Positions 3-16,380 of a DNA stretch of 16,380 bases are shown one piece after another. Position numbers and translations under genes: made by a program. Positions within the stretch are counted from its first letter, which is position 1; each line of letters opens with the position of its first letter. The stretch covers positions 12,831-29,210 of the forward strand of contig JAGTWP010000011.1 in NCBI GenBank assembly GCA_018260755.1, given 5' to 3'. The notes under the pieces are model-generated. The model was not told the DNA's origin. It did no database searches and worked only from the letters and a program-made list of their open reading frames with translations. This DNA is from Candidatus Altarchaeum sp. GTDB taxonomy: Archaea; Altiarchaeota; Altiarchaeia; Altiarchaeales; Altiarchaeaceae.

Positions 3-1284
3 GTTTAAATCGCACTATGTAGTATGGAAACTTTTTGGTCGTCCTTGTCCATATTTTATTTTCCTTAGTTTAAATCGCACTATGTAGTATGGAAACAATA
101 TTTCCATCTCAAAATATGTAAATCCTTTTTAGTTTAAATCGCACTATGTAGTATGGAAACCGATTTGTGCGTATGCCTTCAAAATGTCGTCCTGCTTGTT
201 TAAATCGCACTATGTAGTATGGAAACTATGTTATAAGTAAAAAATAAATAAAAATGCGCGGGGTTTAAATCGCACTATGTAGTATGGAAACATGAAGGTT
301 GAAAAACAAACCGCGTTAAATCTTTCAAGTTTAAATCGCACTATGTAGTATGGAAACGTATATCCACATTATTACAATCCCAAAGTTTTTGCTGTTGTTT
401 AAATCGCACTATGTAGTATGGAAACCGAGCTGGATGAGAGAATGTTTCATCTATCTTGATCAGTTTAAATCGCACTATGTAGTATGGAAACTTTTTTATG
501 CGATAGTTGTTGTTGATTTGATGTTGAGTTTAAATCGCACTATGTAGTATGGAAACGGTTCGGGTGAAGTATCAACAGGGGACAATAATTTTGTTTAAAT
601 CGCACTATGTAGTATGGAAACGAGGAAAAGCAAAAAAAAAGCTTAGGTCAGGAAAAAGTTTAAATCGCACTATGTAGTATGGAAACTATTGTTGTAAATT
701 CACAAATACAGCTGAATTTTTCAGTTTAAATCGCACTATGTAGTATGGAAACTTTCTGTTGTGTCAGAATTTCCTCTATGAAAAAAACGTTTAAATCGCA
801 CTATGTAGTATGGAAACTTATAAGTAAATAAATGTGTATATAATTACAATCCTGAGTTTAAATCGCACTATGTAGTATGGAAACAACTCCTGTTTTCCTC
901 TTTAAGAGTGTTAATTTTTTTAGGTTTAAATCGCACTATGTAGTATGGAAACAATAAAATGTCTATCTTTAATTATCTATTAAATCAAAGTTTAAATCGC
1001 ACTATGTAGTATGGAAACTCGAGAAGTGTTGAAGAGATGTTTGAGAGAATATGGAGGTTTAAATCGCACTATGTAGTATGGAAACACTCCCTGCTCTTTT
1101 GTATTTGGCCCAGGTATCCTTTCGTTTAAATCGCACTATGTAGTATGGAAACAGGAAGCGGAAAAACAGAGAAAAGAAAATATGCGGGAATGTTTAAATC
1201 GCACTATGTAGTATGGAAACCCATTACCATTACCGTTGTCATTACCGTTACCATTGTTTAAATCGCACTATGTAGTATGGAAAC
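3..1284 (+). CRISPR. CRISPR array, 20 identical repeats
   Basis: Twenty identical 29-bp repeats start at 3, 68, 132, 198, 263, 329, 397, 463, 528, 593, 658, 724, 789, 856, 924, 990, 1057, 1124, 1192 and 1256. Each begins GTTTAAATCGCAC and ends in ATGGAAAC. The 19 spacers are 35-39 bp and all differ. The window opens only 2 bp before the first repeat, so the array very probably continues to the left. The + orientation rests on two points: the 3' end of the repeat resembles the 8-nt 5' handles (ATTGAAAC type) of archaeal and clostridial type I-B and type III crRNAs, and the repeats decay at the right-hand end, normally the leader-distal end. The repeat has little internal dyad symmetry (ACTA/TAGT only). 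No cas gene is present, so the subtype cannot be fixed. Confidence 0.98.
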
Positions 1285-1759
1285 TTTGATTCAGAATGTA
1301 ATTGAAATATATACCGACGGAAGTTGCCACAACGATTATAACATTGGGGCATGGGCACCAATATTGTTTGTTGATAATAAAAAAACAATCTTAAAAGGTA
1401 CCGCTCAAAACACAACACACAACAGAATGGAATTATTGGCTGTAATTAAAGCCATAGAGTTCTCAAATGAAAATTACAAGCATTCATTGTTAAAAATATA
1501 TACCGATAGCCAGTATGTATTTCGAATTCCTGAAAGAATGGACAAATTAAAAAATAATAATTTTCATACAAAAAGAGGAATTCCTTTACACAATGATGAT
1601 TTAGTGCAAATTTTAATTCATCAAATTGAAGAAAATACAATTGAATTTATTAAAGTAAAAGCACACCAGAAAAAAGAATCTGATAACATAAATTATAATA
1701 CTGAAGTGGATAAAATAGCACGCCAAGCGGTTAGAGATGTTGTTAAAAATACCTATTAA
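1277..1759 (+). CDS. rnhA: Ribonuclease HI embedded in the CRISPR array
   Basis: A 160-aa protein, the usual size for RNase HI, which cleaves the RNA strand of RNA-DNA hybrids with two metal ions. All five canonical active-site residues are visible: D14 (YTDGSC), E52 (NRMELLA), D77 (YTDSQYV), H130 (KAHQ) and D145 (EVDKIAR). The fold starts about nine residues after the initiator, so no N-terminal domain is missing. The ATG at 1277 lies inside the CRISPR repeat at 1256-1284. The in-frame upstream codons reach TAA at 1259-1261, still inside the repeat, so the repeat supplies the only ATG; a TTG at 1286 is the nearest alternative. No Shine-Dalgarno sequence precedes it. The segment between flanking perfect repeats is 536 bp instead of about 37. 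The intact frame and catalytic residues argue for a working or recently acquired gene. It resembles bacterial-type RNase HI, and transfer is an inference. A role in CRISPR biology is speculation. Confidence 0.93.
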   Translation: METLIQNVIEIYTDGSCHNDYNIGAWAPILFVDNKKTILKGTAQNTTHNRMELLAVIKAIEFSNENYKHSLLKIYTDSQYVFRIPERMDKLKNNNFHTKRGIPLHNDDLVQILIHQIEENTIEFIKVKAHQKKESDNINYNTEVDKIARQAVRDVVKNTY

Positions 1760-1775
1760 CTATTAAAAAATTCAC

Positions 1776-1802
1776 ATCCGATAGCTATTGGATCTGTTTT
1801 TT
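1776..1802 (+). terminator. Hairpin plus T-run after the RNase HI gene
   Basis: The arms ATCCGAT (1776-1782) and ATTGGAT (1787-1793) pair over seven positions with one G-U wobble around the tetraloop AGCT. CTG and six Ts (1797-1802) follow. TTAAAAAA (1763-1770) could also pair with TTTTTTAA (1797-1804), giving an outer stem. This has the form of a bacterial intrinsic terminator or of a bidirectional one. It lies 17 bp after the stop codon and 18 bp before the next CRISPR repeat. It would limit read-through from the upstream array into the distal repeats. No transcript data are available. Confidence 0.6.
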
Positions 1803-1820
1803 AACATTTGGGATTAATAT

Positions 1821-1982
1821 GTTTAAATCGCACTATGTAGTATGGAAACACTAACTTACGAATAACCTGTGAATGCCGTGTTAAATTGTTTAAATCGCAC
1901 TAGGTAGTATAGAAACCCAAGTTATTCTTATTGCTTATATTGCTTATAGAACAGTTTAAATCGCATAAGGTAGTATAAAAAT
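1821..1982 (+). CRISPR. Leader-distal end of the array, beyond the RNase H cassette
   Basis: A perfect repeat (1821-1849), a repeat with two substitutions (1888-1916, TAGGTAG and TATAGAAAC) and a strongly altered one (1954-1982, ending AAAAAT instead of GAAAC) are separated by spacers of 38 and 37 bp. The graded loss of identity to the right is typical of the old end of an array. Spacing and repeat identity match the part before the cassette, so this is best read as one array interrupted by the RNase H segment, not two unrelated arrays. Confidence 0.92.
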
Positions 1983-6233: not shown

Positions 6234-7802
6234 ATGAACAATATAAATGAAATAAAGATAAAGGATCAAATATTTGAGCTAAAGAAAAGAGGCATAACTG
6301 ATCAAGAAATCGGGGAGAAATTTAATGTCAATCTTCACTTTATTGAAAAAGTTATCACAGAAAGATTAGGAGTTAATGTGTCAAATCCATCTCTAAAAAA
6401 GAGGATAAAAACATTTCAGCCAAAAGATTTTTCTTTGGAAACAACAACGGTGTGGAGTTTTAAATCAAGGGGGGTATGGGCAACACATAATGGAAATTAT
6501 CGTGGAAATTGGTCGCCCTACATACCTAGAAATGTAATACTAAGATATTCTAAACCAGGTGAACTTGTATTAGATTGTTTTTGTGGTGCAGGCACAACAG
6601 GTATTGAATGCAAATTAATCGGTAGAAATTTTATAGGTATTGATATAAATCCAAATGCAATTGAATTAGCAAAAGAAAACATTGACTTTCAAGTTTCTAA
6701 TATTTATAGTAACAATGAAAATAACAATAAAAACAGCAGCAATAAATCACCTTCTGTTAGATTTATAGTTGGAGACGCAAGAGATTTATCCTTTATTAGT
6801 GATAGTTCTATTGATTTAATTTGTGCCCACCCCCCTTATGCAAATATAATTCAGTATACTAATAATCAAAAAAATGACTTGTCTTTTTGCGCTGTAGATG
6901 AGTTTCTTAATGAAATGTCTGCGGTAGCAAAAGAAAATTATCGCACTTTAAAAGACGGCGGATATTGTGCAATACTAATAGGTGATATGAGGAGGCATAA
7001 ATCTGTTATACCTTTGGGATTTAAGTTGATTGATGTCTATTTGAAAAATGGCTTTTCAGTTAAAGAATTAGTTATTAAGAGACAGCATAACTGTAAAACC
7101 ACCGGCTTTTGGTATAAAAATAGCATCAAATACAATTTTCTTTTATTGGCGCACGAATATTTGGTAATTTTCAAGAAAACTTCAATTCCACGACAACAAA
7201 CCTTGAAGGAAGTTGAAGAGTCAGAAAATGAAAATTTTTACTTTAAACCAACAGATACAAAACAGACAGGATCAAGTAATATTGAATCAAGTAATATTGA
7301 ATCAAGTAATATTGAATCAAGTAATATTGAATCAAGTACTGTCTGGATATTTGAATCCAAAAATTGGTTTAATAAAACAATTCAAAACTTAATTGGACGA
7401 TACGATGGAAATAATTATTATTTAATTAACAAAACAGATGACTTCAATAAATTAGATTCAATAGAAACAAAAACCTTAATCGTAGCAACATGTAATAACA
7501 AGGAGATGTTCAAAGCATTTTGTGGAGATATTGATAAAGTTGTGAAACAGATCAGGGATAAAGGTTATTTGGCAATATTGTGTAATGATATGCGTTTTAA
7601 GGATGGAACTATCTATCCGATGGCAATAGAAATAGATAAATTTCTTGAAAATCGGACTGAATTAAAAATAAAAGAGATCGTTGTTCTTTCTATTGAGAAT
7701 AATCATAATGCAGGCGAGCCCACAAATGAGGATCTTAAAATAACCTTCAAATATTTACTAATTTATAACATAATAAAAGAAAAAAAAAGTAAAAATGGAT
7801 GA
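6234..7802 (+). CDS. DNA methyltransferase (N4-C/N6-A type) with degenerate C-terminal half
   Basis: A 522-aa AdoMet-dependent DNA methyltransferase. An N-terminal helix-turn-helix (about 11-40, KKRGITDQEIGEKFNVN) precedes the conserved block TTTVWSF (70-76), GVWATHNGNYRGNWSPYIPRN, AdoMet motif I DCFCGAGTTG (from D114) and catalytic motif IV HPPY (199-202, AHPPYANIIQYTN). The family's GYCAILIGDMR ends at R253, and HEYLVIFKK closes the domain. Motif I before motif IV, with HPPY, fits the archaeal and bacterial group described as DNA modification methylases; the target base is not decided. A linker of SSNIE repeated four times (7272-7331) leads to a second half that restarts with STVWIF and has GYLAILCNDMR (to R454) but no motif I or HPPY. 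No cognate endonuclease is obvious, so it may be an orphan. It starts 8 bp after hisH without a ribosome binding site. Confidence 0.9.
   Translation: MNNINEIKIKDQIFELKKRGITDQEIGEKFNVNLHFIEKVITERLGVNVSNPSLKKRIKTFQPKDFSLETTTVWSFKSRGVWATHNGNYRGNWSPYIPRNVILRYSKPGELVLDCFCGAGTTGIECKLIGRNFIGIDINPNAIELAKENIDFQVSNIYSNNENNNKNSSNKSPSVRFIVGDARDLSFISDSSIDLICAHPPYANIIQYTNNQKNDLSFCAVDEFLNEMSAVAKENYRTLKDGGYCAILIGDMRRHKSVIPLGFKLIDVYLKNGFSVKELVIKRQHNCKTTGFWYKNSIKYNFLLLAHEYLVIFKKTSIPRQQTLKEVEESENENFYFKPTDTKQTGSSNIESSNIESSNIESSNIESSTVWIFESKNWFNKTIQNLIGRYDGNNYYLINKTDDFNKLDSIETKTLIVATCNNKEMFKAFCGDIDKVVKQIRDKGYLAILCNDMRFKDGTIYPMAIEIDKFLENRTELKIKEIVVLSIENNHNAGEPTNEDLKITFKYLLIYNIIKEKKSKNG
7272..7331 (+). repeat. Four tandem 15-bp repeats in the methyltransferase linker
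   Basis: Four exact copies of TCAAGTAATATTGAA, followed by the partial copy TCAAGTA, encode (SSNIE)x4 in frame. Identical codons in all copies point to recent expansion by slippage. The repeat forms the flexible link between the catalytic domain and the degenerate second half. Confidence 0.97.
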
Positions 7803-8085: not shown

Positions 8086-8364
8086 ATGAATTTCTATTCA
8101 ACAGAAGGAACAAAAATAAGTATAAATGAGGGCGAATATATTGACTTAAATACCTTTATAAAAGATAAGTTTAAAGATTTGGAATTTTACAGGATTACAG
8201 ACGGAAATTATTGGCTTACTTCAGACGGAAATTATTGGCTTACTTCAGACGGAAATTATTGGCTTACTTCAGACGGAAGAAACCCCTTTTTAAATTTATT
8301 ACAATATTTCAACAAAGTATTTAACATTAATACATTCATAGAGTATATAAACAGCGCAAATTAA
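8086..8364 (+). CDS. Small ORF with three exact 8-residue repeats
   Basis: A 92-aa ORF of unknown function. The frame stays open from 7996, but ATG 8086 gives the more protein-like start (MNFYSTEGTKISINEGEYIDL); the upstream part is hydrophobic and AT-driven. The middle contains DGNYWLTS three times in a row plus a partial DGR, and the C-terminus is a plausible amphipathic helix (NPFLNLLQYFNKVFNINTFIEYI). No catalytic motif, signal peptide or known domain is visible. It lies alone between the methyltransferase and alaS, with 193 bp of non-coding AT-rich DNA before the open frame. A role as a small accessory protein of the methyltransferase cannot be excluded, but nothing shows it. It may also be a decaying gene fragment. 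Confidence 0.5.
   Translation: MNFYSTEGTKISINEGEYIDLNTFIKDKFKDLEFYRITDGNYWLTSDGNYWLTSDGNYWLTSDGRNPFLNLLQYFNKVFNINTFIEYINSAN
8200..8271 (+). repeat. Three tandem 24-bp repeats
   Basis: Three exact copies of a 24-bp unit starting GACGGAAATTATTGG (8200-8223, 8224-8247, 8248-8271), followed by GACGGAAGA. They are in frame and encode DGNYWLTS. The identity at silent positions indicates a recent tandem amplification. Confidence 0.97.
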
Positions 8365-11213: not shown

Positions 11214-12668
11214 ATGAAACTTCAAAAGGAATATCTGTTGGCAATTTTCGGAATTATTGCTTTTTTGCTTGTAGGTGTAGCAATGCTCGTGTATTTTGGA
11301 ATTTCAAATGTATTTTATTTTGCAGTAGCAGTCATTGTTATAGGTATTATCGCAGCAATTTATTATGTGTGGAAGAGCACAACAGCAAAGAAAAATATTT
11401 TATGGCTGAAAGCAAGCAAGGAAAAAACAGCAGCGGAAACAAAGGAAATTTATTTAAAAACAAATGCTGCATTAGATAAAATTTCAAAAGAAGTTCCCGA
11501 TATGAACATTGATGCAGAAAAAGAAATGTTAAATAAGGCAAGAACGGCGCTGATTTCATTAGAATGTTTTACTGCAAAATACGACTTGATTTATCCCAAA
11601 CTTGAAAAATTAAATTTATCTTATTTGCAGCAAAAAAAGAAGGATGTTGAAGACGAAGTAAATAAAATTCATCAGGACATAAAGGCAAAATTTCAGAAGT
11701 GGATTTCCGAGTATTATAAAAATTTAAATAAAATAATTGACGATGCGAAAAATGTCGGGTTTGAGATAGAAAATTTTACTTTTGATGAAAATGTGAAAAA
11801 TACAGATGATGCAATTGAAAAAGTAGCACAGTTAAAGAACAAAATTTCAGAAATTTTTAAGTCCTTACATTCACAGGTCTCTGATTTAGAACAAATTGCA
11901 GGCAGGCGAATTGATACGACACAGCAAGCAGAAAAAATTTTATCCACAGCCACAGGTGTCAATAAAAATTTTTACGAATTAAGTGTGCTTATCATTGTTA
12001 AAAACGAACTGAACAATTTGCTTGCTAATGATGTTTCAAAATTAAAGGAAGAGGTATTTAACATTGATGTGAGCAATCTGAAGGATGGAAACATATTAAA
12101 CGAAGATGAAAAGAAAGAACTTGCCTCTATCATGAATGCGGTAAAGACGATGAATCCATCAACAATAAAAAACATTGCTCTTATTGAGACAAAATACAGA
12201 AATTTCCTGAAAAATACAATACAAAAAATTCGCACAAATATAATTTCATTGGAAAATTTTGTTGGTCAACAGGAACTTCCGGAAGAATTTAAACAACTTG
12301 TAACAATACAATCCGGACAATATAATGGTGAATTAAATAGTGAATTAAATAGTGAATTAAATAATGAATTAAATAGCGAATTCCATGATTCAAATGTAAA
12401 AACAGATAAAACAGACAATATTCCGCTTAATATGTTTGTACAGCAGTGTTTTGAAAATATAAGGAGCATGCAGGCAATATTTGAAAAGAACGATTTAATA
12501 AGAAGAATAATAAAAAATTATCCGGTTATAAAAGACATGATTGAAAAAATAATCTCGCAAAAGGGCAGTGTTTCCGTTGGTGACTTAAAGATAAATTATG
12601 CAAATATGTTTTTGATTTATTATAAATTTAAAAATCCTGATAAAGTAGACAAGGTAAAATTAGAATGA
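11214..12668 (+). CDS. Membrane-anchored coiled-coil protein, unknown function
   Basis: A 484-aa protein with two N-terminal membrane helices (about 8-29 and 31-52, separated by a short turn) and then a long soluble part rich in Lys, Glu, Leu and Asn with heptad-like helices (KLEKLNLSYLQQKKKDVEDEVNKI, AIEKVAQLKNKISEIFKSL). The likely topology is a hairpin anchor with the large helical domain in the cytoplasm. Residues 373-388 are four tandem copies of ELN(S/N), encoded by 12-bp repeats. The C-terminal 70 residues (IRRIIKNYPVIKDMIEKII...DLKINYANMFLIYYKF) look globular. I recognise no family. Its TGA overlaps the ATG of the restriction-system methyltransferase (ATGA at 12665-12668), suggesting translational coupling or a chance insertion junction. 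Confidence 0.82.
   Translation: MKLQKEYLLAIFGIIAFLLVGVAMLVYFGISNVFYFAVAVIVIGIIAAIYYVWKSTTAKKNILWLKASKEKTAAETKEIYLKTNAALDKISKEVPDMNIDAEKEMLNKARTALISLECFTAKYDLIYPKLEKLNLSYLQQKKKDVEDEVNKIHQDIKAKFQKWISEYYKNLNKIIDDAKNVGFEIENFTFDENVKNTDDAIEKVAQLKNKISEIFKSLHSQVSDLEQIAGRRIDTTQQAEKILSTATGVNKNFYELSVLIIVKNELNNLLANDVSKLKEEVFNIDVSNLKDGNILNEDEKKELASIMNAVKTMNPSTIKNIALIETKYRNFLKNTIQKIRTNIISLENFVGQQELPEEFKQLVTIQSGQYNGELNSELNSELNNELNSEFHDSNVKTDKTDNIPLNMFVQQCFENIRSMQAIFEKNDLIRRIIKNYPVIKDMIEKIISQKGSVSVGDLKINYANMFLIYYKFKNPDKVDKVKLE
12330..12377 (+). repeat. Four tandem 12-bp repeats in the coiled-coil gene
   Basis: Four copies of GAATTAAATAGT, the third with AAT and the fourth with AGC at the end, encode ELNS-ELNS-ELNN-ELNS in frame, followed by EF. 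The few substitutions suggest a slightly older expansion than the exact repeats elsewhere in the window. Confidence 0.95.
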
Positions 12669-14107
12669 ATACTGGACACCATACACCATGTAAGCAAATA
12701 AATAAAGAATTTATAGACGAACTGAAAAACAACGCAAATGACTTGTCATCATTTCTTCAAGATCAAAATGAAGGAGTGATTGTTTATGTATTAGAAAAAT
12801 TAGGAAGATTAGACAATGACCACAGTCGCAAGCCCTTGTTAAATTTGCTTAATCATACGAATGAAAATATTAGAACTTTGTCAATTAAAAATTTGGCAAA
12901 AATAGAAGATATTTCTTTGTTACCTATATTTGTAAAATATGCGAGCACAGACAAAAGTACAGAGGTAAGGCGAGAGTCCGTCTCTGCAATAGGGAGGATT
13001 AGAAATGAAATGGCAATTCCAGTCTTAATAGAACTTTTAAAAGATGAAGATCCAAAAGTTGTAATGCAAGCTATAAGGGGTTTACTTATTTTTTCTGATA
13101 AAGCCAAGGTAAAAAATGAATTAAAAAAATTGATAAACCACCCAAACGAATTAATAAAAGAAGTTATTAATAAAGAAATAAACAGGGTACAATATGAATC
13201 AAATAGTCAACAAAAGCATGATGAATTCCCTCTATTTTTAAAGAATACCGTAGTGCACGGTGATGTAGAAGAAATAATAAAATATATACCGGACGAATCT
13301 ATTCATTTAACTTTTACATCTCCTCCTTATTATAATGCCCGGGACTATTCTATCTATCAGAGCTATGAAGAATATATAAATTTTTTAGAGCGGGTATTCA
13401 AAGAAGTTCATCGTGTTACTAAAGATGGCAGATTTTTCGTTCTCAATACTTCACCAATTATTATTCCAAGAATAAGCAGAGCTTATTCCAGCAAGAGGTA
13501 CCCAATTCCTTATGATATTCATCCATTATTAGTAAAAATGGGGTGGGAATTTATTGACGATATTGTGTGGGTTAAACCGGAAGCAAGTGTAAAAAACAGG
13601 AACGCGGGCTTCTTACAACACAGGAAGCCATTGGCATATAAACCGAATGCCGTTACAGAAATGTTGATGGTTTATAGAAAAAGAACAGATAAATTAATTG
13701 ACTGGAATATACAGCAATATAGTTGGGATAAAGTTAAAAGAAGCAAGGTTTTAGACAAATACGAAACAACAAATGTTTGGCGCATTGATCCAACTTTTGA
13801 TAAAGTTCATAGTGCTGTTTTTCCTTTGGAGTTATGTAACAAGGTTATTAAATATTACTCTTATGTTGATGATTTGATATTTGATCCATTTGCCGGAATT
13901 GGAACATCAGGATTATCAGCAATTAATTTAAATAGGTATTTTTTTTTGACAGAGAAAGAACCAAAATATATAGACCGAATTAAAGAAGAATTAAGCAAAA
14001 GCAGTAGTTTATTTAATCAAACACAACAACCAAATTTCGTTGAATTCGAAAAATTTATTTTATTATCAAAAAAATATGGCGACACCAAAAAATATGACTC
14101 TAACTGA
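12665..14107 (+). CDS. Type II DNA methyltransferase, beta class, with N-terminal HEAT repeats
   Basis: A 480-aa protein. Residues about 35-170 form HEAT-like helical repeats (VLEKLGRLDNDHSRKPLLNLLNHTNENIRTLSIKNLA is one unit; RRESVSAIGRIRNEMAIPVLIELLKDEDPKVV is another). The methyltransferase domain follows in beta order: catalytic SPPY at 219-222 (FTSPPYYNARDY), a central target-recognition region (EFIDDIVWVKP, HRKPLAYKPNA), then AdoMet motif I DPFAGIGTSG from D407. SPPY is typical of N4-cytosine methyltransferases. It is followed, with a 32-bp overlap, by a PD-(D/E)xK endonuclease, so it is the protective half of a restriction-modification system. The start at 12665 overlaps the preceding stop as ATGA. 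HEAT repeats fused to a type II methyltransferase are unusual and may help DNA or endonuclease binding (inference). Confidence 0.93.
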   Translation: MNTGHHTPCKQINKEFIDELKNNANDLSSFLQDQNEGVIVYVLEKLGRLDNDHSRKPLLNLLNHTNENIRTLSIKNLAKIEDISLLPIFVKYASTDKSTEVRRESVSAIGRIRNEMAIPVLIELLKDEDPKVVMQAIRGLLIFSDKAKVKNELKKLINHPNELIKEVINKEINRVQYESNSQQKHDEFPLFLKNTVVHGDVEEIIKYIPDESIHLTFTSPPYYNARDYSIYQSYEEYINFLERVFKEVHRVTKDGRFFVLNTSPIIIPRISRAYSSKRYPIPYDIHPLLVKMGWEFIDDIVWVKPEASVKNRNAGFLQHRKPLAYKPNAVTEMLMVYRKRTDKLIDWNIQQYSWDKVKRSKVLDKYETTNVWRIDPTFDKVHSAVFPLELCNKVIKYYSYVDDLIFDPFAGIGTSGLSAINLNRYFFLTEKEPKYIDRIKEELSKSSSLFNQTQQPNFVEFEKFILLSKKYGDTKKYDSN

Positions 14108-15008
14108 ACAAGTTGCAAAAAATATAATTAGAAAGTTACTAAAAGGAGAGGATTATAGGATTGAAGTCGTAACGCTTATTAACGCCGAGTTTTTACAATT
14201 TGCTGTTGATTTCTTTAAGAAAATTGTTGACGCAAAGCTTAAAAACAAAGGCATAACAATAGATTGGTATAAAAAGGAATTTCGTAATCCCAATTTACCG
14301 ACTCGAGACATTGCAATCAATTCAGGATTAAATGAAAAGACAATTCACAACATGTTTAATTCCTCTACAAAGGAAATTGTGATTGATGCTTCAAACGAAC
14401 ATTACAACGCTCTTTATGAGGTGATTAAAAATCTTGTAGAGACAGAGCACGACCTTGAACTTACTTTAACTATTAAATTTAAGGGTGTAAGCATTGATTT
14501 AAATGTTAGCGAAAGTTTAATCGTGATAAATACACTTGCAGTAAAAAGAGCCGCATTGAGAGGCGGATTATGGAGTACTGCTGGCAAAAGAGTTGAAAAA
14601 CCTTTAATGCAGACACTCTGTAAATTATATGGTGTTTCTGATAATAATTATTCCTTGAAAATAAAAGGTAAAGAAATTGAAGAAGATGATTTTGAAAGAG
14701 AAATTGATTTTTATTTGGTTGAAAACAAAAACCAACACAAGTGCGAAGTTAAATTAATGGGTAGAGGCAATCCGGAAAGTGCCGATGTAGTTATCGCAAG
14801 AGATAGTAAGGTTTTTGTGGCTGATAAACTTTCAGATACAAACAAAAAACAATTAAATAGCCGAAAAGTTGAATGGGTTGAATTAAGAAGCGATGGTGGA
14901 TTTCAAAGGTTTGAAAATGTTTTGGATCATTTAAAAATTCAACACAAGAAATTACCGAAAAATATTGATAAAAGATTAGAGTTGGTTTTTAAGGAAATTT
15001 TTAAATAA
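14076..15008 (+). CDS. Type II restriction endonuclease, resembles CfrBI family
   Basis: A protein of 310 aa from ATG 14076 (MATPKNMTLTEQ); the frame is open from a TTG at 14040, but that start is less likely. The C-terminal half holds a PD-(D/E)xK-like core: D211 in EREIDFYLV and E224-V-K226 in CEVKLMGRGNPESADVV, followed by a hydrophobic strand (SKVFVADKLS). Before it, AALRGGLWSTAGKRVEKPLM looks like a family signature I associate with CfrBI-type enzymes; that assignment is from memory and should be checked. An N-terminal helix-turn-helix-like section (LPTRDIAINSGLNEKTIHNMF) may read DNA. The 32-bp overlap with the methyltransferase shows they form one unit. CfrBI cuts CCWWGG, but the specificity here is unknown. 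Confidence 0.75.
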   Translation: MATPKNMTLTEQVAKNIIRKLLKGEDYRIEVVTLINAEFLQFAVDFFKKIVDAKLKNKGITIDWYKKEFRNPNLPTRDIAINSGLNEKTIHNMFNSSTKEIVIDASNEHYNALYEVIKNLVETEHDLELTLTIKFKGVSIDLNVSESLIVINTLAVKRAALRGGLWSTAGKRVEKPLMQTLCKLYGVSDNNYSLKIKGKEIEEDDFEREIDFYLVENKNQHKCEVKLMGRGNPESADVVIARDSKVFVADKLSDTNKKQLNSRKVEWVELRSDGGFQRFENVLDHLKIQHKKLPKNIDKRLELVFKEIFK

Positions 15009-15874: not shown

Positions 15875-15887
15875 CATAAAAAATTTA
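15875..15887 (+). promoter_or_regulatory. Candidate TATA region for the first GYD gene
   Basis: CATAAAAAATTTA begins 39 bp before the ATG at 15914 and is identical to the 13 bases 36 bp before the alaS ATG. The spacing and identity support a promoter role for leaderless or short-leader transcripts. Confidence 0.4.
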
Positions 15888-15913
15888 AAAAACAAAATTT
15901 AAAAAAATTTAGA

Positions 15914-16192
15914 ATGACAACATACATAATGTTGGGCAGGTATAGCACAGAAGGAATTAAAGGAACATCTAAGGAAAGGACAAAGACGGTTGTTGGTGAA
16001 ATCAAAAAGAACAAGGGAAAAGTTAGTGCAATGTATGCAATGCTCGGAAATTATGATTTGTGCTTTGTTGTGGATTTTCCGACAAATAATGAAGCAATGA
16101 AGGCATCTGTAAATATTGCAAAAGCAACGGGAATTGGATTTAGAACACTTCCTGCAATATCTGTGGATGAATTTGACAAATTGATATTATAA
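15914..16192 (+). CDS. GYD domain protein, first tandem copy
   Basis: A small 92-aa protein of the GYD family (PF08734), a ferredoxin-like dimeric alpha/beta domain without an assigned reaction. The family's central GxYD motif is visible as GNYDLCFVVDFP, preceded by the opening strand MTTYIMLGRYSTEGI and followed by the closing part FRTLPAISVDEFDKLIL. The length equals a full single domain. It has no signal or membrane segment. A second, nearly identical gene begins 52 bp after its stop, with the same upstream bases TTTAAAAAAATTTAGA directly before the ATG, so the duplication includes the immediate control region. The function is unknown; stress or small-ligand binding is sometimes suggested for the fold. 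Confidence 0.85.
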   Translation: MTTYIMLGRYSTEGIKGTSKERTKTVVGEIKKNKGKVSAMYAMLGNYDLCFVVDFPTNNEAMKASVNIAKATGIGFRTLPAISVDEFDKLIL

Positions 16193-16244
16193 ATAAAACA
16201 GAAAAATTTAAAAATTTAAAATCAAAAATTTAAAAAAATTTAGA

Positions 16245-16380
16245 ATGACAACATACATAATGTTGGGCAGGTATAACACGGAAGGAATTAAGGGAACATC
16301 TAAGGAAAGGACAAACGCGGTTGTTGGTGAAATCAAAAAGAACAAGGGAAAAGTTAGTGCAATGTATGCATGTATGCAAT
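16245..16380 (+). pseudogene. Second GYD copy, frameshifted by an 8-bp duplication, truncated by the window
   Basis: The first 43 codons match the upstream GYD gene with few changes (YNTEG for YSTEG, TNAVV for TKTVV). At the position where copy one reads AATGTATGCAATG, this copy has the 8 bases TGTATGCA twice. The duplication shifts the frame so that MYAMLG becomes MYACMQ, before the conserved GNYD motif. Unless a compensating change lies beyond the window, the protein loses the GYD core. The high identity of the rest suggests that both the gene duplication and the frameshift are recent. An assembly or read error at this short repeat is an alternative. Confidence 0.7.

Follow-up and report, generated by a model that had tools for sequence, protein, structure and literature searches.

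The window analysed in this study (the whole stretch of 16,380 nucleotides; C44:12831-29210) belongs to a 1.32-Mb metagenome-assembled genome (MAG) of a Candidatus Altarchaeum archaeon, and its left end lies within a CRISPR array. From its start at C44:10674, this array runs for about 2.2 kb before it reaches the window, and it directly follows a leader and a type I-B cas operon. As listed in Table 1, it was found that a complete RNase HI gene sits between two perfect copies of the repeat GTTTAAATCGCACTATGTAGTATGGAAAC, which are 536 bp apart. Among the 55 slots of the array, 54 are 33-40 nt long (mean 36.6, sd 1.3) and one is 536 nt long; thus, normal length variation is impossible as the cause. 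The giant slot is the third from the trailer end. Of the three repeats beyond it, the first is perfect and the other two, which are the most distal of the array, are degenerate, as expected of a trailer end. The spacer just left of the window contains a scaffold gap (16 N), which is separated from the insert by about 1.3 kb. The initial annotation had described an intact RNase HI ORF in a spacer position of an array that continues on both sides, and this description holds, with spacers found both left and right of the insert. The span given then, 1277-1820, is narrowed to 1285-1820 for the insert proper.

Table 1. Features of the array with the captured gene and related loci of sister species (positions are those of the window unless a locus is named)
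Feature	Position	Strand	Remark
Leader-side array part in the window	3..1255	+	19 perfect repeats of 29 nt; the spacer after each is 35-39 nt long
Left flanking repeat, perfect	1256..1284	+	3'-terminal 8 nt ATGGAAAC, including an ATG in the reading frame of the captured gene
RNase HI ORF, 160 aa, opened by the ATG of the repeat	1277..1759	+	Donor-type start TTG at 1286
536-nt giant spacer, captured Bacteroidetes chromosomal fragment	1285..1820	+	Flush with both repeats
Terminator-like hairpin ATCCGATAGCTATTGGAT and T run	1776..1802	+	Brought in with the gene; like element at G041:C160, C192 (donor genome)
Right flanking repeat, perfect	1821..1849	+	
Degenerate trailer-end repeats (1888-1916, 1954-1982) and intervening spacer	1888..1982	+	
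Repeat/gene-start loci in G001-G003	L021, L022, L023, L025, L030, L054, L056, L057, L059, L060, L061, L063		Repeat 3' end faces the gene

Elsewhere in the window, a HEAT-repeat and N6/N4 DNA methylase gene adjoins a CfrBI-type restriction endonuclease gene (12665-15008), and a second DNA methylase gene is present at 6234-7802. Some predicted genes contain in-frame tandem repeats (7271-7345, 15-bp units; 8198-8278, 24-bp units; 12319-12382, 12-bp units). A 161-nt direct duplication (15879-16039 and 16210-16370; 95%) has its second copy at the contig end.

The product of the captured ORF matches Pfam PF00075 in a profile search (E 1.2e-27) and RNase HI structures in the PDB (best E 9.5e-15), and the D/E/D/H/D residues are kept in the motifs YTDGS, NRMEL, YTDSQ, VKAHQ, and TEVDK. 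Judging from this fold profile and these catalytic residues, the ORF is an intact RNase HI, predicted to hydrolyze RNA in RNA-DNA hybrids. It is the only coding content of the insert. The gene had been said to start in the left repeat; an ATG is indeed present there, while the donor homologue starts with a TTG corresponding to insert bases 2-4, to which the repeat end adds the upstream in-frame ATG. The terminator-like hairpin has a folding energy of -8.8 kcal/mol (z -1.6) and was not flagged by a consensus scan.

Where did this gene come from? One scan of the GTDB genomes gave one close relative of the protein, encoded on MENF01000198.1 (L018; genome G041) of Bacteroidetes bacterium GWA2_32_17, a groundwater Bacteroidetes MAG, with 92% identity over residues 4-159. 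At the DNA level, L018:3000-3478 and window positions 1285-1763 are identical at 458 of 479 nucleotides (96%), and L018:3644-3672 and window positions 1792-1820 at 29 of 29. The stretch linking the two matches is also collinear, via TAAAAAATTCACA and the hairpin element, and the only departures from end-to-end collinearity are two 3'-UTR indels: the 3' UTR of L018 is about 150 nt longer, and a 15-nt hairpin segment, missing from the rnhA locus of L018, is found elsewhere in the donor genome. The similarity ends exactly at 1284/1285 and 1820/1821, i.e., at both repeat borders. No copy of the array repeat was found at the donor locus even when 8 mismatches were allowed, and the donor flanks (TTTATAT before and AATTTC after the piece) have zero microhomology with the repeat ends. 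The neighbors of the donor rnhA are ordinary chromosomal genes such as that for triosephosphate isomerase (named by sequence). One spacer slot of the archaeal array, where virus fragments of about 37 nt are normally stored, is occupied by a piece of bacterial chromosome that includes an entire RNase HI gene; the capture is precisely bounded by repeats, and the donor is identified to the level of a close relative. Like a spacer, the insert lies flush between two full array repeats and has its protospacer outside the array, with no repeat there; its length is 536 nt versus the 33-40 nt set by the adaptation complex. The earlier idea of an aberrant giant spacer is strongly supported by the exact stop of the Bacteroidetes homology at both borders, while recombination between repeats, the other route then proposed, is not favored because the donor has no repeats.

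The rnhA genes of Bacteroidetes relatives show 73-75% nucleotide identity. In the class of the archaeon, 26 of the 29 members lack an RNase H-family hit, and the hits of two other members are not detected by the RNase HI of the insert, indicating unrelated copies. Since this rnhA type is missing from class relatives and present in Bacteroidetes, the direction of transfer was from bacterium to archaeon. A viral origin was considered and rejected, as IMG/VR has neither a relative of the RNase HI nor a copy of the repeat; one array spacer was searched there as well and gave zero matches. The ORF is open, as had been stated, but its being kept open by selection after the capture has zero evidence: dN/dS against the donor is 0.36, and the changes are split evenly between the two lineages (pairwise comparison and parsimony with three Bacteroidetes outgroups).

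The operon adjoining the array encodes, in this order, Cas6b, Cas8b, a small ORF, Cas7b, Cas5b, Cas3b, Cas4b, AbiEi, AbiEii, Cas1b, and Cas2b, and its cas6b-cas8b-cas7-cas5-cas3-cas4-cas1-cas2 series is that of type I-B. In this operon, cas4 and cas1 are separated by the AbiEi/AbiEii toxin-antitoxin pair (L010:7583-9156). Spacer 1, the newest and leader-proximal one (L010:10703-10740), matches the archaeon's own chromosome at 36 of 36 positions inside a nitroreductase-like ORF (L075; named by sequence) and is, by this match, a self-spacer. Spacer 6 (L010:11033-11069) consists of 24 nt of the repeat, inverted, and about 13 nt similar to the beginning of spacer 21, indicating that the system captured a piece of its own array. 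These two spacers show that the adaptation machinery takes non-viral DNA. Spacers 3 and 5 are duplicates. The 5' flank of the protospacer is TAT for the donor and AAA for spacer 1, and self-spacers of sister species suggest TTA; no consistent PAM motif was found across the three.

A second array in the same genome (L011:6070-6740; G000:C60) has a leader copy with 98.6% identity. Between the leader/GTTTAAAT and the first, 5'-truncated repeat of this array, there is a 51-codon ORF with CxxCxGxG zinc-knuckle motifs, so that the array may hold a second gene. This ORF gave zero DNA matches in the class and weak matches to DnaJ-like proteins.

I consider it likely that the type I-B system integrated an oversized prespacer with a complete foreign gene. 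A piece of Bacteroidetes chromosome, spanning from 1 nt before the start codon of a complete rnhA to 18 nt past the T run of its terminator, would have entered the archaeal cell, and Cas4-Cas1-Cas2 would have joined both of its ends to the borders of the then leader-proximal repeat. The two ends might have been handled in a casposase-like manner, independently of the length ruler. The repeat would have been duplicated on fill-in, like in ordinary spacer acquisition, and later normal acquisitions would have moved the giant spacer trailer-ward. The flush position of the insert at both repeats argues for such a capture, and the array head carries a leader and a complete I-B operon including Cas4, Cas1, and Cas2. 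Since both borders are whole repeats and the donor and the repeat share no microhomology, the structure matches the outcome of an adaptation integrase, i.e., a repeat duplicated around the insert. From this I infer that Cas1-Cas2 catalyzed the insertion. On the other hand, spacer length is normally under tight control by Cas1-Cas2, and the length of the insert breaks this rule. A complete co-oriented ORF at the edge of a random 536-bp fragment is improbable, which hints at selection or a gene-start bias beyond random capture. The giant spacer is a single case in one MAG, and neither a gene-in-array precedent nor the exact repeat string was found in the literature, searched mostly outside subscription journals.

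The flush ends at both borders are equally predicted by a two-step route, in which two neighboring spacers of normal length were taken from the two fragment ends and later bridged by homologous recombination, a second copy of the fragment replacing the intermediate repeat with about 460 bp. This route respects the length ruler, and adaptation can obtain several spacers from one source. However, it requires two co-oriented and correctly ordered spacers from a non-viral bacterial locus as well as a double crossover on homologies of about 37 bp. Moreover, among the other spacers of the array, none has a convincing match in the donor genome; the one match, across two spacers, is 79% over 53 nt (E 6.6e-4). 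The data fit both routes, and direct integration of the oversized prespacer is preferred for its economy; the bridging route seems unlikely. An assembly artefact, in which reads of a co-occurring Bacteroidetes bacterium were joined into the archaeal CRISPR scaffold, is less likely still. The same array of this MAG scaffold does contain the N gap, and the closest donor is also a MAG. Yet the gap is distant, an intact repeat directly adjoins the insert at either end, and it is very improbable that two random joins would both fall exactly on a repeat border. The donor flanks have no k-mer in common with the repeat ends, and the absence of microhomology disfavors a k-mer chimaera as well as end-joining. 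Nor is the insert identical to the nearest donor: the two are distinguished by two indels and, over the 479 aligned nt, by 21 substitutions.

Transfer of a ready-made cassette is quite improbable. Here, an rnhA already fused to the repeat on a plasmid, a virus, or the array of another strain would have entered by homologous recombination between repeats. Identical repeats would ease the exchange, and mini-CRISPR arrays have been reported on Altiarchaeum viruses (PMC8324899). Nevertheless, IMG/VR contains neither the repeat nor an rnhA of this type, and this scenario merely shifts the original capture elsewhere. It is hardly credible that the RNase HI was recruited as a functional accessory acting on RNA-DNA hybrids in interference or adaptation, even though the gene is intact, co-oriented with the array, and provided with an in-frame ATG by the repeat. 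It is present in one genome only, none of the class relatives has an RNase HI of this type, and no sign was seen of purifying selection acting specifically in the archaeal lineage. A tie to R-loops or interference, raised in the initial annotation, gains no support from a lone event whose donor locus lies among ordinary housekeeping genes.

Is the junction of a repeat and a gene start seen elsewhere in the genus? In three sister species (G001-G003), copies of the repeat occur outside long arrays, singly or as a mini-array, directly upstream of chromosomal gene starts (Table 1). At 10 of the 23 sites, the repeat is followed within 16 nt by the start of an ATG ORF that is 80 codons or longer. 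For random positions taken from these loci, the proportion is 4.1% (P 9e-9, an approximate value because the loci were chosen around repeats and a few sites are orthologous, as in pth2). In L021, L020, L025, L056, L023, and L061, copies of 33-39 nt of the gene's own start lie between repeats. The pth2 locus has an empty site in the own genome of the archaeon (L096), while in three sister species the same gene pair is separated by a mini-array. The geometry of the rnhA capture (repeat, 1 nt, start codon) is like that of these sites. Repeat-gene junctions are thus recurrent in the genus. An in-frame ATG from the repeat is not a significant general rule, being found by hand count at 6 of 11 junctions, rnhA included, versus an expected 1/3. 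Short REP-like palindromic elements occur at one same point mid-repeat in L024, L054, L059, and L060 of the sister species.

The 8-nt repeat end ATGGAAAC is presumably the Cas6b 5' handle, its length being as in type I-B. A Cas6b cut in the upstream repeat would give an RNA starting with AUGGAAAC, with a leaderless start in frame with rnhA. Cutting of the pre-crRNA could thus yield a leaderless mRNA for METLIQ-RNase HI, and the sequence is compatible with translation of the captured gene from such an RNA. As a default reading, the captured rnhA is probably a passenger, since the giant spacer is too long for a normal crRNA. The repeat was also considered as a promoter; in this AT-rich genome, no clear enrichment of TTTAAA was seen around -26 of start codons. 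In the archaeal Sulfolobales, CRISPR arrays have been documented to contain cryptic promoters (PMC10883916). A broader and rather doubtful reading is that the CRISPR arrays of this genus are integron-like platforms for gene capture and expression. Gene starts would become linked to repeats by the adaptation machinery, and the repeat would give the 5' end for expression. This reading would cover rnhA, perhaps the zinc-knuckle ORF of the second array, and the chromosomal start codons that single repeats precede in sister species. The 5' end might come from Cas6 cutting, which leaves a leaderless AUG, or from a TATA-like TTTAAAT within the repeat.

At the sequence level, a whole gene that looks functional apparently reached the array from another domain of life by CRISPR adaptation; its borders are exact, and a close relative of the donor is identified. 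This case bears on the strictness of spacer length control by Cas1-Cas2, on the casposon origin of adaptation, and on CRISPR arrays as a route of horizontal gene transfer besides their being a barrier to it. The repeat-before-start-codon pattern in the sister species makes the broader question testable.

Insertions of IS and other mobile elements into CRISPR arrays also produce gene-sized interruptions, but the present insert has no transposase or terminal inverted repeats, and its borders are whole repeats. In casposons, a Cas1 homologue serves as the transposase and joins both ends of a long DNA to a duplicated target. The present case resembles them in the proposed Cas1-family integrase, the long DNA, the joining of both ends, and the duplicated target, while it lacks terminal repeats and genes for a casposase or polymerase, encodes only the RNase HI between ends of plain donor chromosome, and has a CRISPR repeat as the target. 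Integron cassettes are promoterless foreign genes of one ORF each; short repeats flank them, and their array is transcribed from one of its ends. The captured rnhA resembles them in all these respects; however, it is a single cassette, the flanking element is the CRISPR repeat rather than attC, and no integron integrase was found among the genes adjoining the array. Off-target integration of ordinary-length spacers into non-CRISPR sites, forming neo-CRISPR loci, was reportedly described by Nivala and colleagues in 2018; those are also non-canonical products of Cas1-Cas2, whereas here an oversized piece lies in a real array. Compared with ordinary type I-B acquisition by Cas4-Cas1-Cas2, the insert differs in its length, its complete gene and terminator, and its bacterial chromosome source, but shares with it the foreign DNA flush between full repeats, the leader-led array, and the complete I-B operon adjoining it.
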